The notes under the pieces: generated by a model
The model's input: only the letters and a program-made list of their open reading frames with translations
Database searches by the model: none
Told to the model about the DNA's origin: nothing
Assembly: GCA_003349885.1 (NCBI GenBank)
Contig: QFXC01000013.1
Location: 682,001 to 746,000 of the forward strand
From: an endosymbiont of Galathealinum brachiosum
GTDB lineage: Bacteria > Pseudomonadota > Gammaproteobacteria > SZUA-229
Direction of reading: 5' to 3'
DNA length: 64,000 bases
Position numbers and translations under genes: made by a program
Shown: positions 35,727-46,487 of the stretch, one piece after another
How positions within the stretch are numbered: position 1 is the stretch's first letter
How the letters are laid out: the number at the start of each line of letters is the position of its first letter

Positions 35727-37121
35727 TTATTTACAACCTGTTTTTGAGGGATTGATTTCTATTTCATCTAATACAACCTGACTTAAACCATTTTTTAATA
35801 ATTTTATAAATTCTGCTTCTGCCACTGGTCTGGAATATAAATAACCCTGAGCATAATCACTATTTATCTGTCTTAATTTATTATCTACATCTGCGGTTTC
35901 TATTCCTTCCGCTATTACATTCATACCCAAATTATGGGCCAGACTATTTAAGGTGGAAACAATTTCAAAACTTTTTTTGTCTTCACACATGGTACCGACA
36001 AATGTCTGATCTATTTTTAAAGTATCGATAGGAAAATGGTGAAGATAACTAAAGCTTGAATATCCAGTTCCAAAATCATCTATTGCTAATGTCACTCCCA
36101 GTTGTTTTAAGTTTTTTAATGCTTCTAATGCCCGGTCTGGATTTGCCATTAATAATGTTTCGGTTATTTCAAACTTCACATTCGCGGGCACTATTTTTAA
36201 ATTATTAAGTACATTTGAAATATCTTTAATTAAATCAGGGTGCTCAAACTGCCTTGCTGACAAGTTGATACTGACATATAAAAAAGAACCCTTACTGCCT
36301 GATGTTTTTAAAAACCGAATTAAGGCTTCGCAGGCTTCTTCAATAATCCACTGCCCTAGTGGCACTATTAACCCACACTCTTCTGCTTTGGGTATAAAAT
36401 CGGCTGGAGACACAAAACCTAAGACCGGATTATTCCACCTTATTAACGCCTCACAACCCGCTATATGATTATTTTTTATATCAATTATCGGCTGGTAATA
36501 AAGCTCAAACTCATTATTTTCTATTGCATTGCGTAAATTATGTTCAAGATTTAATGTGCTTACGGTAGACATCACCTCATCTGGGTGTGCCACATGATTT
36601 TCATCACTGTGTGTGCTGGTATTCACTGCACCCATTATTCTGTCTTGCATTTCTATATATTGCTTCATTAATGATTTAACAATATTAGTTGTATTGTTAA
36701 ACATTGACTGATATTCATCTTCAGATGCATGGTGTGTTATGCCTTCTACTACATGCATCATTCGAGCATGCATATCACGGTATCGCTCCATTATCACCTG
36801 CAGGAAAAATCGTACGGTTGGATCTGATATATCAATTTTATGTTTTATATATTCACGGGGTATAACAATAAGCTGTGAGTCTTCAATAGCAATTGCCGTT
36901 GCATTTCTCACGTGATCATCAATGAGCGCCATCTCACCTAATAAATCACCATCCGTTAACAATGCAATAATGAGTTTTTTTTCGTCTTTAATTATTGAAA
37001 CTTCAACCATACCTTTTTCAATAATATAAGCGCAGTCTGCAGGGTCACCATCAGAGAAAATAAGAGAGTCGAGGGGGTAGTCTTTTTTATATTCAGTACT
37101 TATCATTTTACTAAACCACAA
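35727..37121 (-). CDS. Cyclic-nucleotide-binding (cNMP) and EAL domain signalling protein
   Basis: The 464-residue cytoplasmic protein pairs an N-terminal cNMP-binding/CRP-type domain (about 10-115, GDLLGEMALIDDHVRNATA) with an EAL phosphodiesterase domain (about 195-440). A helical linker joins them. The EAL domain keeps the catalytic pattern: CEALIRW, NLSARQF, FEITETLLM, DDFGTGYSSFSYL, KIDQTFV and AEGIE. It should therefore break down c-di-GMP, perhaps under control of a cyclic nucleotide or another small ligand. It is divergent from the HDOD gene, with 133 bases between starts. Confidence 0.9.
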   Translation of the reverse strand: MWFSKMISTEYKKDYPLDSLIFSDGDPADCAYIIEKGMVEVSIIKDEKKLIIALLTDGDLLGEMALIDDHVRNATAIAIEDSQLIVIPREYIKHKIDISDPTVRFFLQVIMERYRDMHARMMHVVEGITHHASEDEYQSMFNNTTNIVKSLMKQYIEMQDRIMGAVNTSTHSDENHVAHPDEVMSTVSTLNLEHNLRNAIENNEFELYYQPIIDIKNNHIAGCEALIRWNNPVLGFVSPADFIPKAEECGLIVPLGQWIIEEACEALIRFLKTSGSKGSFLYVSINLSARQFEHPDLIKDISNVLNNLKIVPANVKFEITETLLMANPDRALEALKNLKQLGVTLAIDDFGTGYSSFSYLHHFPIDTLKIDQTFVGTMCEDKKSFEIVSTLNSLAHNLGMNVIAEGIETADVDNKLRQINSDYAQGYLYSRPVAEAEFIKLLKNGLSQVVLDEIEINPSKTGCK

Positions 37122-40235: not shown

Positions 40236-41222
40236 CTAGCCGCCGGTATAAGACATAAACCTTAATACTTTTTCAGGATTTTCATTAAACTCATGTTTTT
40301 CTGGTTTCAAATCTATTGCTGTGCGAATGGCCTGTTCCAGCTCTTCATCTGTAATGCCTGCACGTAATAATGGACGTAATTCAAAATTATCCTCCTGACC
40401 CAGGCAGGTATAAATTGTGCCGTCTACAGACAGGCGCACCCGATTACAGGTTTCACAGAAGTGTTGCGATAAAGGCGTAATAAAACCAATATTAATATCG
40501 GTTCCCTGCACATTCATATAACGTGCCGGGCCACCACCGGGCATAACACCCGGTACCAGGTCAAAACTTTTTGCCAGGCGTTGCTTTATATCCTGAAGGT
40601 TTACAAATTTATCGGTGGCTTTACGTCCCATATCACCCACCGGCATGGTTTCTATAAAGCGTAGTGTAAATCCGTGTTTCGCACAAAACTCAACCATGCT
40701 TTCTACTTCATGATCGTTTGTATCTTTCATTAACACCATATTTACTTTTATAGGACTAAGGCCAGCCGCTTTCGCGGCCATTAAACCATCAACAACTTTT
40801 TCTAACTTGCCACCGGTTAATTCTTTAAACGTATCTGCATTTAAACTATCAAGGCTTACATTGATACGGCTGATACCCGCCGCTTTTAATTCCTCTGCAT
40901 GTTTATTCATGCGAGTGCAATTAGTACTCAGTGATAAATCTTCTAAACCGGGAAGTGCAGATAATCGATGCGCAAGTTGTGGCAGGTTTTTTCTAACTAG
41001 CGGTTCGCCACCAGTTAAACGTATGCGGCGTGTGCCCATTCTTGCGAAAGCAGCTACCACTCTTTCAATCTCATCAAAGGTCAGCCACTCATCTGGCTCA
41101 TGAAAATCTTTAAAGTGCTTAGGCATGCAATACGTACAGCGCAGATCACATCTGTCGGTAACGGATATACGAACATAATCTATGCTTCGTCCAAACTGAT
41201 CTATTAATGCTGTTTCTGACAT
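40236..41222 (-). CDS. moaA: GTP 3',8-cyclase (molybdenum cofactor biosynthesis)
   Basis: This 328-residue radical-SAM enzyme starts the molybdenum-cofactor pathway by converting GTP to 3',8-cyclo-7,8-dihydro-GTP. It has the N-terminal cluster CDLRCTYC (CX3CX2C), the C-terminal cluster CETCNRV...TCLG (CX2CX13C) and the terminal Gly-Gly needed for activity (SYTGG). Length is normal. It is divergent from soeA, the molybdoenzyme gene, across 517 bases, which fits cofactor supply. Confidence 0.97.
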   Translation of the reverse strand: MSETALIDQFGRSIDYVRISVTDRCDLRCTYCMPKHFKDFHEPDEWLTFDEIERVVAAFARMGTRRIRLTGGEPLVRKNLPQLAHRLSALPGLEDLSLSTNCTRMNKHAEELKAAGISRINVSLDSLNADTFKELTGGKLEKVVDGLMAAKAAGLSPIKVNMVLMKDTNDHEVESMVEFCAKHGFTLRFIETMPVGDMGRKATDKFVNLQDIKQRLAKSFDLVPGVMPGGGPARYMNVQGTDINIGFITPLSQHFCETCNRVRLSVDGTIYTCLGQEDNFELRPLLRAGITDEELEQAIRTAIDLKPEKHEFNENPEKVLRFMSYTGG

Positions 41223-41690
41223 GACTGTCTACCTTGCGTAATACCTGCACATGAGTATGACCTGTTGAAGGTTGAAATGTTTCGACTCATTCTATAAGTA
41301 TAAACAGAACAGATCATTGGGCCTGATCAAGAACGAGATACATATATAATATAAGATAAATCAAATATACGCTACATTACTCAGTGTAAGGTTATGTCAC
41401 CGTTTGTCGAGTTAATTTTTTCAGCATAAATAACCTCTCACTCAAACGAACTATTACCGTTAGTTATAAAAACTCGTAAAAACAATGAGTTAGATAAAAT
41501 AAAACTTTATTGCAATAGAAGCATATTGCGCTAAAACGCAGCCACAGCAGGCTTTCAACTATGTGAAGCGGATATTTCTATGCTATACCTCATATCCATT
41601 TAGTAATAATCAAATTTAAGCTAACTATTAAATTTAATAATATCCTATATAAGTATTTTATGATTAACTTAACAATCCTGATTAGCTTTA
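41223..41690. other. Gene-free interval between moaA and soeA
   Basis: The moaA-soeA gap is AT-rich and holds no supported gene. I looked for a Moco-riboswitch-like pattern ahead of moaA and did not recognise one. The last part, near 41691-41710, carries the FNR-type site and -10 element that are listed separately. Confidence 0.6.
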
Positions 41691-41710
41691 TTGATTTCGA
41701 TCAATATAAT
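41691..41710 (+). promoter_or_regulatory. FNR/CRP-family site overlapping the soeA core promoter
   Basis: TTGATTTCGATCAA (41691-41704) matches the FNR consensus TTGAT-N4-ATCAA exactly. The next six bases, TATAAT (41705-41710), are a perfect -10 hexamer. The site centre lies about 20 bases before the expected transcription start, so a bound regulator would block RNA polymerase. FNR/Anr-type proteins bind when oxygen is scarce; Dnr/NnrR-type proteins use similar sites. AGGA at 41729-41732 lies 7 bases before the soeA ATG. Confidence 0.7.
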
Positions 41711-41739
41711 CGTTCGACACTTTAAAACAGGACTTTAGT

Positions 41740-44649
41740 ATGACATCCAGTGTGATACATGATGCGACCAAACAACCCGTTGGCCGTATTGAAACCAAAA
41801 ATACTACCTGCTATATGTGTGCTTGTCGTTGTGGTATTCGCGTAACATTGCGAGACAACGAAGTACGTTACATACAGGGCAACCCTGAACACCCTTTAAA
41901 TAAGGGCGTAATCTGCGCTAAAGGCGCATCAGGCATAATGAAGCAGTACTCACCTGCTCGTTTAACGAAACCGTTATTGCGCAAGAAAGGCTCTCTACGT
42001 GGCGACTCTGAATTCGAGGAAATTTCCTGGGATAAAGCGTTCGACATTATGGAAGATCGCCTGGCAAATATTCGTGCTACAGATCCTAAAAAATTCACCT
42101 TAATCACTGGTCGCGACCAGATGCAGGCATTAACCGGTATGTTCGCGAAGAACTACGGTACGCCTAACTACTCGGCACACGGTGGTTTCTGCTCGGTTAA
42201 TATGGCTGCCGGCATGATCTACTCTATCGGTGGTTCTTTCTGGGAATTTGGTGGTCCTGATCTGGAACGCTCCAAGCTGTTCATTATGATCGGCACAGCG
42301 GAAGATCATCACTCCAATCCGATGAAAATTGCCCTGTCTGAATTTAAACGTAACGGTGGTCGTTTTATTTCGATCAATCCGGTACGCACGGGTTACTCTG
42401 CGATTGCTGATGAATGGGTGCCAATTAAACCAGGTACTGATAATGCGTTAATTTTAGCGATCGTACGTGAGTTAATTGAAACCGGTTTATATGACCGTGA
42501 GTTTGTTAAAGATTACTCTAACTCAGGTCAGCTGGTTAACTGTGATGAAAATTCAGAACAGCACGGCATGTTCTATCGCATGGATATCAATGACCCTGAA
42601 GAGGGTTGTTTCGATCACCAGAATCAAATGTGGTGGGATCGTCATACAGACAAACCTGTTCGTACACACACTGAAGGAACCGATCCATTCTTAATGGGTG
42701 AGTTCACTATGGAAGATGGCACGCCGGTTAAACCTGCATTCCAGCTTCTTAAAGAATCAGTTGAAGAATACACACCTGAATGGGCTGCTTCTGTTACGGG
42801 CATTCCAGCTGAAACAATTCGTCGTCTGGCCCATGAAATGGGCATAGTGGCACGTGATGAGAAAATTGAATTACCGATTGCCTGGACTGACACATGGGGT
42901 CGTGAACATGCTTCTGTAACCGGTAACCCGGTTGCCTTCCACGCAATGCGTGGCCTGGCTGCTCACTCTAATGGTTTCCAGACTATTCGTGGTTTATCTA
43001 TCTTAATGTCGATACTGGGCACCATTGATCGCCCGGGCGGATTCCGCCATAAAGCACCATTCCCGCGCCCAATTCCACCCTGCCCTAAAACACCAAAAGG
43101 GCCAGAAGGCGTTAAACCCAATACACCATTAGGCGGTATGCCACTTGGCTTCCCCGCATCACCTGAAGATTTATTTATTGACGATAAAGGTGAGCCGGTT
43201 CGACTGGATAAAGGCTTCTCATGGGAGTTCCCATTATCTGCTCACGGCTTAATGCACAATGCTATCACCAATGCATGGCGCGGCGACCCGTACAAAGTTG
43301 ATACGATGATGATTTTCATGTCTAACATGGCATGGAACTCAACCATGAACACCACCGATGTTCGTGGCATGTTGAACGACAAAGATGAAGATGGTGAATA
43401 CAAAATTCCATTCTTAATTGTCTCTGATGCATTCCACTCAGAAACCGTTGCATTTGCTGATCTGGTGCTTCCAGATACAACTTATCTTGAGCGTCACGAT
43501 GTTATGTCAATGCTTGATCGTCCTATTTCAGAATTTGACGGCCCGGTTGATTCAGTTCGTGTTCCGGTTGTTCCACCTAAGGGTGATTGCAAACCATTTC
43601 AGGAAGTTTTAATTGAACTGGGTTCACGTTTGAAATTACCCGTATTCGTTAATGATGATGGTTCACGTAAATATCGTAACTACCCTGAGTTCATTACCAA
43701 CTTTGAAACTGAGCCGGGTTCTGGTATTGGTTTCCTTGCTGGCTGGCGCGGTAAAGGTGGCGAGAAATTCATGAAAGGTGAACCGAATCCGAACCAGTGG
43801 GAAATGTACGAAAAGAATAACTGTGTTTACCAGTATCACTTACCGGTTTCTTATCAGTACATGCGTAACTGGAACCAGGGTTACTTAACCTGGGCACAGG
43901 ATCACCGTTTAACACGTTACGATGAACCGATTAATATTCATATTTATTCTGAAGTTCTGCAGAAGTTCAGATTAGCTGCACAGGGTAAACGCCCTGGTCG
44001 TCAGCCACCTGATCATTTACGTGCACGTGTTGAAGAACACTTTAATCCGCTACCTTTCTACTCTGAAACATTAGAAGGTAAGTTAACGGATAAACAGAAG
44101 TACCCGATTAATGCATTAACTCAGCGTCCGATGGCGATGTATCATTCATGGGATTCTCAGAACGCCTGGTTGCGTCAGATTCATGCACATAACTATATGC
44201 ATGTGCATCCATCGTTAGGTGAGAAACATAACTTTAAAGATGGCGACTGGATTTACGTTGAATCAATGCACGGTAAAGTACGTTGCATGGCCCGTTTCTC
44301 TGAAGCGGTTGAGCCGGGCACTATCTGGACATGGAATGCGGTAGGAAAAGCAAAAGGCGCCTGGAACTTAAGTGATGATGCAAATGAATCACAACAGGGC
44401 TTCCTGCTTAACCACTTAATTGCGGAAGAGCTGCCTAAGAATGAATGTGGTGAACACATATCTAACTCTGACCCGGTAACGGGACAGGCTGCATGGTATG
44501 ACGTACGTGTACGTGTTTATAAAGCAGAAGATGATGCGGACCACACACTGCCTCAGTTTAAATCAATGAAAGTTTTACCGGGTATGAATATACGCCGTAA
44601 ATGGCAGGGTTTCTTTGCCGGTAAATTTGACAAGAAGGGAGCTAAATAA
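41740..44649 (+). CDS. soeA: Sulfite dehydrogenase, molybdopterin catalytic subunit (SoeA-like)
   Basis: The 969-residue protein is a DMSO-reductase-family molybdoenzyme. It has an N-terminal 4Fe-4S site (Cys24, Cys27, Cys31, Cys59) and Moco-binding domains throughout. There is no Tat signal, so it faces the cytoplasm. Size, lack of signal and the soeBC neighbours match SoeABC of purple sulfur bacteria, which oxidises sulfite to sulfate in the cytoplasm. Related complexes (Psr, Phs, Dms) usually carry Tat signals. It is coupled to soeB by a 1-base overlap. The exact substrate is inferred. Confidence 0.85.
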   Translation: MTSSVIHDATKQPVGRIETKNTTCYMCACRCGIRVTLRDNEVRYIQGNPEHPLNKGVICAKGASGIMKQYSPARLTKPLLRKKGSLRGDSEFEEISWDKAFDIMEDRLANIRATDPKKFTLITGRDQMQALTGMFAKNYGTPNYSAHGGFCSVNMAAGMIYSIGGSFWEFGGPDLERSKLFIMIGTAEDHHSNPMKIALSEFKRNGGRFISINPVRTGYSAIADEWVPIKPGTDNALILAIVRELIETGLYDREFVKDYSNSGQLVNCDENSEQHGMFYRMDINDPEEGCFDHQNQMWWDRHTDKPVRTHTEGTDPFLMGEFTMEDGTPVKPAFQLLKESVEEYTPEWAASVTGIPAETIRRLAHEMGIVARDEKIELPIAWTDTWGREHASVTGNPVAFHAMRGLAAHSNGFQTIRGLSILMSILGTIDRPGGFRHKAPFPRPIPPCPKTPKGPEGVKPNTPLGGMPLGFPASPEDLFIDDKGEPVRLDKGFSWEFPLSAHGLMHNAITNAWRGDPYKVDTMMIFMSNMAWNSTMNTTDVRGMLNDKDEDGEYKIPFLIVSDAFHSETVAFADLVLPDTTYLERHDVMSMLDRPISEFDGPVDSVRVPVVPPKGDCKPFQEVLIELGSRLKLPVFVNDDGSRKYRNYPEFITNFETEPGSGIGFLAGWRGKGGEKFMKGEPNPNQWEMYEKNNCVYQYHLPVSYQYMRNWNQGYLTWAQDHRLTRYDEPINIHIYSEVLQKFRLAAQGKRPGRQPPDHLRARVEEHFNPLPFYSETLEGKLTDKQKYPINALTQRPMAMYHSWDSQNAWLRQIHAHNYMHVHPSLGEKHNFKDGDWIYVESMHGKVRCMARFSEAVEPGTIWTWNAVGKAKGAWNLSDDANESQQGFLLNHLIAEELPKNECGEHISNSDPVTGQAAWYDVRVRVYKAEDDADHTLPQFKSMKVLPGMNIRRKWQGFFAGKFDKKGAK

Positions 44650-45380
44650 TGACTCAGCTAGCTCTGATAATAGACCTGAATGTTTGTGTAGGCTGTAGTG
44701 CCTGCGTAACATCCTGTAAAGAATGGAATACATCTGGCCCTGCGGGTTTTATGTCTGATGACAACCCATACCAGAAAGATCCAACCGGTACTTTCTTTAA
44801 CCGTGTACAAACTTATGAAGTGGGTGAGTTTCCAAAAACGGAAACGGTTCACTTTCCAAAATCATGTTTACATTGTGAAGAGCCTCCCTGCGTTCCTGTG
44901 TGCCCAACGGGTGCCAGTTACAAACGCGAACAGGATGGTATTGTTCTGGTTGATTACGATAAGTGTATCGGCTGTAAATATTGTTCATGGGCCTGCCCTT
45001 ATGGCGCTCGTGAAATCGATGAACACCAGAAAGTAATGAAAAAATGTACTTTATGTGTTGATCGTATTTATGATGAATCTTTACCCGAATCTGAGCGCAA
45101 GCCGGCCTGTGTATTAGCCTGCCCGACTAACGCACGTTTATTTGGTGATGTACATGATGCTCATTCAGATGTATCTGAATTAATTCGTGATGCAGGTGGT
45201 TACCAGCTTATGCCTGAATGGGGCACCAAGCCTTCTAACCATTATTTACCTCGCCGTAAAAACAAAATTACGATTCATAAAGATGAACTGGTTCGTGTTG
45301 ATAATCCGCTTAATAAAGAGCAGAAAGAACACCATAAACCGGTTGATGGTTCGGTACTTGATGATAACTCATTCATCTAA
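44649..45380 (+). CDS. soeB: Sulfite dehydrogenase iron-sulfur subunit (SoeB-like)
   Basis: This 243-residue ferredoxin-like subunit has four cysteine clusters for 4Fe-4S centres: CVGCSACVTSC, CLHCEEPPCVPVC, CIGCKYCSWAC and CTLC...CVLAC. It passes electrons from SoeA to the membrane subunit. It starts 1 base inside the soeA stop. The next gene, soeC, is separated by 129 bases that contain an inverted repeat, which is unusual within such an operon. Confidence 0.9.
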   Translation: MTQLALIIDLNVCVGCSACVTSCKEWNTSGPAGFMSDDNPYQKDPTGTFFNRVQTYEVGEFPKTETVHFPKSCLHCEEPPCVPVCPTGASYKREQDGIVLVDYDKCIGCKYCSWACPYGAREIDEHQKVMKKCTLCVDRIYDESLPESERKPACVLACPTNARLFGDVHDAHSDVSELIRDAGGYQLMPEWGTKPSNHYLPRRKNKITIHKDELVRVDNPLNKEQKEHHKPVDGSVLDDNSFI

Positions 45381-45509: not shown

Positions 45510-46487
45510 ATGCATCCCGCATTTTCTGTCATATTTTTAACAACATTAATCGGTGCAGGACAGGGTTTATTTCTGGCGCTGTTTTCAACACAGGTTTACT
45601 CTGAATTTGATCTGTTACCCGGTATTGGTGACACCAACTTCTACGGTATCGGTGCAGCTATCTCACTAGCGCTATTAATAGGTGGTTTAGTTTCATCAAT
45701 ATTTCATTTAGGGCACCCTGAACGCGCATGGCGCTCGGCTGCACGCTGGAAAACTTCATGGTTATCTCGTGAAGTTATTGCATTACCCACTACAATGGCT
45801 GCCGTTTTCGCATATGGCCTTATCCATCTTATGGGGCTTGATAGCATTGCTTTCACTCATGGTGAAATCAATTTAAGCATGAGTCTGTTTGTTGGGGTTT
45901 TTGCTGTTATCGCCACCTTTGCATTATTTCTTTGCACTGCAATGATTTACGCCTGCATTAAGTTTTTACAGGAATGGTCTAGCCCATTAACTGTTATTAA
46001 CTACTTTCTGTTTGGAACTGCTTCGGGTTTTACATTAGCAACTGCACTATCAAGTTACCTCGGCCTTACTGAACAGACACTGTTTCTTGGTGGCTGGGCA
46101 ATTGCATTGACGGTTCTTGTTTTTATTACCCGCTCTGCATCTCTTTACCGAAATAGCCGCATAAAACATAAATCATCTATCCAGACCGCAATTGGTGTTC
46201 GCCATAACAAAATTGAGCAGAAATCACAGGGTGCGATGGGTGGCTCATTTAATACTCGCGAATATTTTCATGGCAAGACAGCGATGTTTCTAAAATCCAT
46301 TAAATTTATTTTTATGATTTTAGTATTCCCTGTTCCTTTGGTTATGCTTTCTGCTGCAATGTCTAATGGAAATACAGAGGTATTACTGGCTGCATTCCTG
46401 ATTCAGTACCTCGGACTGGTAGCTGAACGCTGGCTCTTCTTTGCACAGGCAAATCATCCACAAAATATTTACTACCAAACTGTCTAG
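45510..46487 (+). CDS. soeC: Sulfite dehydrogenase membrane anchor (SoeC/DmsC-like)
   Basis: The 325-residue protein has about eight membrane segments and DmsC/NrfD-type features, including HPAFSVIFLTTLIGAGQGLF and SIFHLGHPERAWRSAARWKTSWLSREV. It should anchor SoeAB and pass electrons to quinone. AAGGAGAG directly before the ATG gives a strong ribosome site, so its translation does not depend on soeB. A good terminator follows. Confidence 0.88.
   Translation: MHPAFSVIFLTTLIGAGQGLFLALFSTQVYSEFDLLPGIGDTNFYGIGAAISLALLIGGLVSSIFHLGHPERAWRSAARWKTSWLSREVIALPTTMAAVFAYGLIHLMGLDSIAFTHGEINLSMSLFVGVFAVIATFALFLCTAMIYACIKFLQEWSSPLTVINYFLFGTASGFTLATALSSYLGLTEQTLFLGGWAIALTVLVFITRSASLYRNSRIKHKSSIQTAIGVRHNKIEQKSQGAMGGSFNTREYFHGKTAMFLKSIKFIFMILVFPVPLVMLSAAMSNGNTEVLLAAFLIQYLGLVAERWLFFAQANHPQNIYYQTV

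Follow-up and report, generated by a model that had tools for sequence, protein, structure and literature searches.

The window, by which we mean the whole stretch of 64,000 nucleotides analyzed, from an uncultured sulfur-oxidising bacterium, includes three consecutive genes on the + strand: soeA (41740..44649), which codes for a molybdopterin oxidoreductase subunit of 969 amino acids, soeB (44649..45380), coding for a 4Fe-4S dicluster subunit, and soeC (45510..46487), coding for a DmsC-type membrane anchor. The three-gene layout, consisting of a molybdenum subunit, an iron-sulfur subunit and a DmsC/NrfD-type anchor, was recovered with Pfam, and soeB adjoins soeA in 80 of the 80 named loci, as does soeC except in a few that are cut by contig ends. 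Among the 25 of 27 NCBIfam matches listed for the catalytic subunit none was over its cut-off and none was a Soe model. SoeABC is a sulfite-oxidising complex that Dahl et al. are said to have described in 2013. The name is used here on the basis of the initial annotation, the operon structure and the genomic context, which is one of sulfur oxidation (aprA and dsrA are present, and AprA and DsrA score over their cut-offs), and not of a comparison with the characterized Allochromatium vinosum enzyme; the product is a predicted sulfite oxidiser. According to the passages of PMC6397845 covered here, SoeABC belongs to the conserved components of sulfur oxidation of both the Dsr and the Hdr type, and the operon resembles that of such sulfur oxidisers in having molybdopterin, iron-sulfur and membrane subunits together; the complex occurs in sulfur oxidisers of the Dsr type, and dsrA is found here. 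Those passages name no soeABC regulator, and FNR is absent from the main text. Divergent from soeA lies moaA (40236..41222, − strand; 394.6 bits against a cut-off of 284.05). Its ATG and the box described below are separated by 468 nt, which makes control of moaA by the box improbable, and the gene was rejected as a target. Elsewhere in the window (35727-37121, − strand) a cyclic-nucleotide-binding domain is fused to an EAL (c-di-GMP phosphodiesterase) domain.

The region upstream of the soeA ATG at 41740 has the order GATTAGCTTTA-TTGATTTCGATCAA-TATAATCGTTCGACACTTTAAAACAGGACTTTAGT-ATG. The FNR-type box TTGATTTCGATCAA (41691..41704, no strand assigned), a candidate operator, is an exact match to the consensus, and its palindrome is two pairs longer than the consensus (TATTGAT...ATCAATA). 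It is directly followed by a perfect −10 hexamer, TATAAT (41705..41710, + strand), assigned to the soeABC promoter. The initial annotation had given the box with its correct sequence and coordinates and had it overlapping the −10 region; the two do adjoin, but the hexamer is not overlapped, and the box sits inside the 17-nt spacer that separates it from the putative −35, TTAGCT (41682..41687, + strand). This −35 assignment, which we infer, overlaps a conserved GATTAG (41680-41685) and matches TTGACA at only about half of its positions. Because the −35 is weak the soe promoter was missed by the consensus promoter scan, being absent from its output. The predicted transcription start, derived from the position of the −10 and located 7 nt 3' of it, is at 41717 (+ strand), which would place the center of the box (41697.5) at −19.5, close to the −20 anticipated earlier. 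A ribosome-binding site, CAGGA (41728..41732, + strand), is kept in 10 of the 10 promoters listed. Further upstream lies an AT-rich conserved element, TATATAAGTATTTTATGATTAACTTAACAATCC (41646..41678, + strand), which is similar in the five nearest promoters from other genera and in the alignment of the five genomes, and is a possible activator or UP-type site. Its first 16 nucleotides, TATATAAGTATTTTAT (window 41646-41661), have five other genomic copies within one mismatch, at sites that include G000:C11:745421 and G000:C8:453493. The copy at C8:453493 is exact and is found 21 nt past an FNR box, and the gene after one of the one-mismatch copies was named on sight as, presumably, mogA.

The history of this promoter was traced among 110 soeA loci (L024-L133), from which 2 truncated inside the gene and 6 with less than 110 nt upstream were left out, the remaining 102 loci representing 95 distinct promoters. 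A box adjoining TATAAT is found in all five genomes of the genus that were analyzed (four exact, one with one mismatch) and in 0 of the 90 other distinct promoters. When up to one mismatch is allowed anywhere within 110 nt of the ATG the numbers are 5 of 5 in the genus and 3 of 90 in the others, and in those three the box never adjoins TATAAT. Looking for the box in relatives, as the initial annotation had suggested, thus gave a divided answer: it is conserved in the genus, and none of the other genera examined has it at this position. The core promoter has a wider distribution, since GATTAG or GATTGG (GATTRG) followed after 19-21 nt by TATAAT is found in 17 of the 95 promoters, with and without a box, the five genus promoters all having a spacing of N19, while it is N20 in nine others and N21 in a further three. 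Five promoters from the three nearest other genera (L028-L032) include this core and a similar AT-rich element, and their spacer has no box. The simplest reading of these sequences is that the box came later than the core promoter (GATTAG, 19-21 nt, TATAAT) and was gained within it by the genus as an operator; loss in the other genera would be the alternative history. In the alignment of the five genomes 9 of the 10 box arm columns are invariant (G003 reads TTGAC) and 3 of the 4 core columns vary. With SoeA at 93-97% the members of the genus stand close to one another, and the promoter sequence on either side of the box has been kept as well, which makes retention of the box evidence that is independent only in part. 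In six soeA promoters from other lineages (L075, L092, L095, L100, L102 and L106) the same −35/−10 spacer holds a different dyad, ATATCA-N8-TGATAT, which on visual inspection is either perfect or one mismatch away from it; it looks as though this position had there attracted another regulator.

We consider it likely that the box is an operator gained by this genus in a pre-existing sigma-70-type soeABC promoter, at which an FNR-family dimer would block RNA polymerase under anoxic conditions, leaving soeABC on when oxygen is present. Binding, start site, direction of regulation and identity of the regulator are all inferred from the sequence. The genome includes a protein that scores 312.6 bits against a cut-off of 228 and is a bona fide FNR; the lack of any FNR-family protein, which the initial annotation had named as grounds for giving up its reading, is thereby refuted. 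The protein has the motif CX2CX5C (Cys 15/18/24), Cys 117 and an ETISR helix, features kept in 16 of the 16 orthologs inspected out of 30 loci; from E. coli FNR we take Cys 15, 18, 24 and 117 to be the Fe-S cysteines. Matches to FNR at E<=1e-40 were found in 5 of the 5 genus genomes and in 44 of the 58 genomes searched. Genes that have such a box upstream elsewhere in the genome include napF, ccoN, ubiT, aprB and coxB, an oxidase gene, each of which scores above its NCBIfam cut-off, and further genes named on sight that we take to be norC, dnr, qmoA and hppA. The possibility that fnr itself is autoregulated through the box at C13:595035 was considered unsupported: this box is as far as 823 nt upstream of the ATG of fnr, and a different ORF intervenes. 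A single porin-like gene (locus L153) is preceded by a pair of exact FNR boxes spaced by 197 nt (G000:C14:122348 and 122545), one of them sharing the core TTCG with the soe box.

FNR may not be the only protein able to read such a sequence. The genome includes eight matches to PF00325, and a Crp/FNR-family protein with the helix PETFSR adjoins the norC-like gene, which has its own box (L158), while another family member with the helix ETASR is encoded at C2:160149. The box could be read by one or more further regulators whose recognition helix is of the E..SR type. Dnr-type proteins use FNR-like boxes. If the Dnr-like protein, or another member of the family, were the reader at soeA, soeABC would be turned off by nitric oxide or denitrification and not directly by lack of oxygen. 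The sequence does not separate this reader from FNR, but a true FNR is present in all five genomes of the genus, and we regard control by another family member as unlikely.

The initial annotation was further examined with regard to chance. The window holds a single exact TTGAT-N4-ATCAA, against a mean of 0.24 in shuffled sequence, and 21 of 100 shuffles had at least one, so that one exact box per whole window is by itself unremarkable; for the stretch of 200 nt ahead of soeA, the probability that an exact box arises under shuffling is 0.001. Genome-wide there are 38 boxes, a count that took in exact sites only and missed degenerate ones, compared with 33 for the everted control ATCAA-N4-TTGAT. 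An earlier comparison of 38 with 4, in which the control was the pattern read backwards, was discarded as unfair. The everted control has the same half-sites, and the raw number was rejected as evidence. The position of the boxes differs from that of the controls: 29 of the 38 boxes are outside ORFs of at least 100 amino acids, compared with 8 of the 33 everted controls (Fisher p=1.2e-5), and the result is similar with ORF cut-offs of 80 (28/38 vs 8/33) and 120 amino acids (29/38 vs 9/33). It is the location between genes, not the raw number, that is evidence. By the same comparison about 20 of the 29 intergenic boxes are above chance and about 8 could be due to it. A scan of −10-like hexamer offsets over 76 oriented sites of this genome, which are too few for the purpose, gave no clear peak. 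Alternatively, the soeA box might have no regulator at all, having arisen by chance and been retained through shared ancestry. This would agree with exact boxes being no more numerous than everted controls, with the share of intergenic boxes that could be chance, and with the close kinship of the genus and its conserved surrounding promoter. We nevertheless find it very unlikely, given the low probability in the upstream region, the retention of the box arms while the core columns vary across the five genomes, and the many plausible FNR targets in the genome.

In E. coli, as described in the parts of PMC3688515 covered here (Myers et al. 2013), 19 of the 23 FNR-activated promoters with known starts have their site at −41.5 +/-4, and the 16 FNR-repressed promoters have sites from −125.5 to overlapping +1, examples being gadE (−22.5), can (−11.5), hisL (−11.5) and fnr (−0.5). 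Nearly all activated promoters of that set using −41.5, the soeA box could be imagined as a class II site that activates soeABC from a start near 41739, a reading rejected as most improbable because that start would fall past the CAGGA at 41728-41732, leaving the message almost leaderless, and because the perfect TATAAT adjoining the box is kept in promoters with or without a box. Occlusion within the spacer is on this account the best reading. The proposed control resembles the core-promoter repression by E. coli FNR described in those parts of the source in that the site would lie within the region covered by RNA polymerase and expression would be expected to fall under anoxic conditions; it differs from those cases in that the target is a sulfite oxidase, the site adjoins the −10, and the direction is a prediction. 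When oxygen is absent, the −35/−10 spacer would be occupied by a dimer of an FNR-family protein, the likeliest candidate being the FNR with four cysteines encoded here; RNA polymerase would be kept off, with the result that SoeABC would be lowered. When oxygen is present FNR would be inactive and soeABC would be expressed from the conserved promoter, perhaps with the help of an upstream activator.

Soe cannot be considered the only sulfite route, as aprA is present; since AprA and DsrA are encoded, it is one of two cytoplasmic routes. The initial annotation had proposed that sulfite oxidation is repressed at low oxygen, and the promoter layout would fit a shut-off of Soe, but the claim is too broad: sulfite could still be oxidised, because FNR boxes are likewise found at the aprBA and qmo operons of the APS-reductase route and at hppA, a nearby H+-pyrophosphatase gene. 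The likely effect of the soeA box would be to shut one route and not sulfite oxidation as such, and the earlier interpretation as a whole is partly supported.

The box of aprB is 427 nt upstream of the gene and has TATAAA 22 nt 3' of it, which would place its center at about −41.5 if TATAAA is the −10; that of hppA (G000:C13:135577-135590) has TATAGT 23 nt 3' of it, for a center at about −42.5 if TATAGT is the −10. Both spacings fit the class II distance expected for activation. The qmoA box is 254 nt upstream of the gene and its spacing to a −10 is ambiguous. The hppA box is found across genera, in 10 of the 10 loci with intact 5' ends (L298-L307; 4 of the 14 loci were truncated and left out), exact in four genus members and with one mismatch in six others. 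Among 30 aprB loci the box is exact in G000, G003, G006 and G018, has one mismatch in G009 and L180, and is absent in L179 (G025) and in the remaining loci; among 22 qmoA loci it is exact in G000, G009 and G025, has one mismatch in G006 and G018, and is absent in the rest. Two types of aprB, about 53% identical, swap within the genus: G000 and G003 have one (L171, L193) and G001 and G002 the other (L194, L198), the latter with no box within the 3.4-kb loci. No aprB match was found in G004, where the aprA match starts at contig base 1, so that the absence looks like a contig break. QmoA was found within the genus only in G000; the soe operator is nevertheless kept in all five. A reciprocal switch within the genus would therefore be plausible in two of the five members and unsupported at apr in two, the fifth (G004) apparently having lost its aprB at a contig end.

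In its broadest form, which we offer only as a tentative proposal, FNR would swap the sulfite routes: without oxygen SoeABC would be turned off through the spacer operator, and the APS-reductase route (aprBA, qmoAB-hdrCB) together with the membrane H+-pyrophosphatase would be turned on, conserving more energy per sulfite when respiration is limited. The apr, qmo and hppA side of such a switch would be common to neighboring genera, and the soe operator would have been added later by one genus. In Ca. Thiosymbion oneisti, likewise a sulfur-oxidising gammaproteobacterium with the APS-reductase route, the portions of PMC8269255 covered here describe aprAB, aprM, sat and qmoABC as raised without oxygen; neither 'soe' nor 'FNR' appears as a whole word in the main text of that article, and its section 6 assigns no regulator. 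The listings and passages of open-access literature surveyed held no description of FNR control of soeABC. With this genus-level FNR-family operator, a familiar type of control would gain a new target. Many sulfur oxidisers can convert sulfite to sulfate in the cytoplasm by either of two routes, and we are not aware of an agreed explanation of when a cell uses one or the other. The soeABC spacer operator, together with the FNR sites at apr, qmo and hppA, would provide a directly testable oxygen rule.
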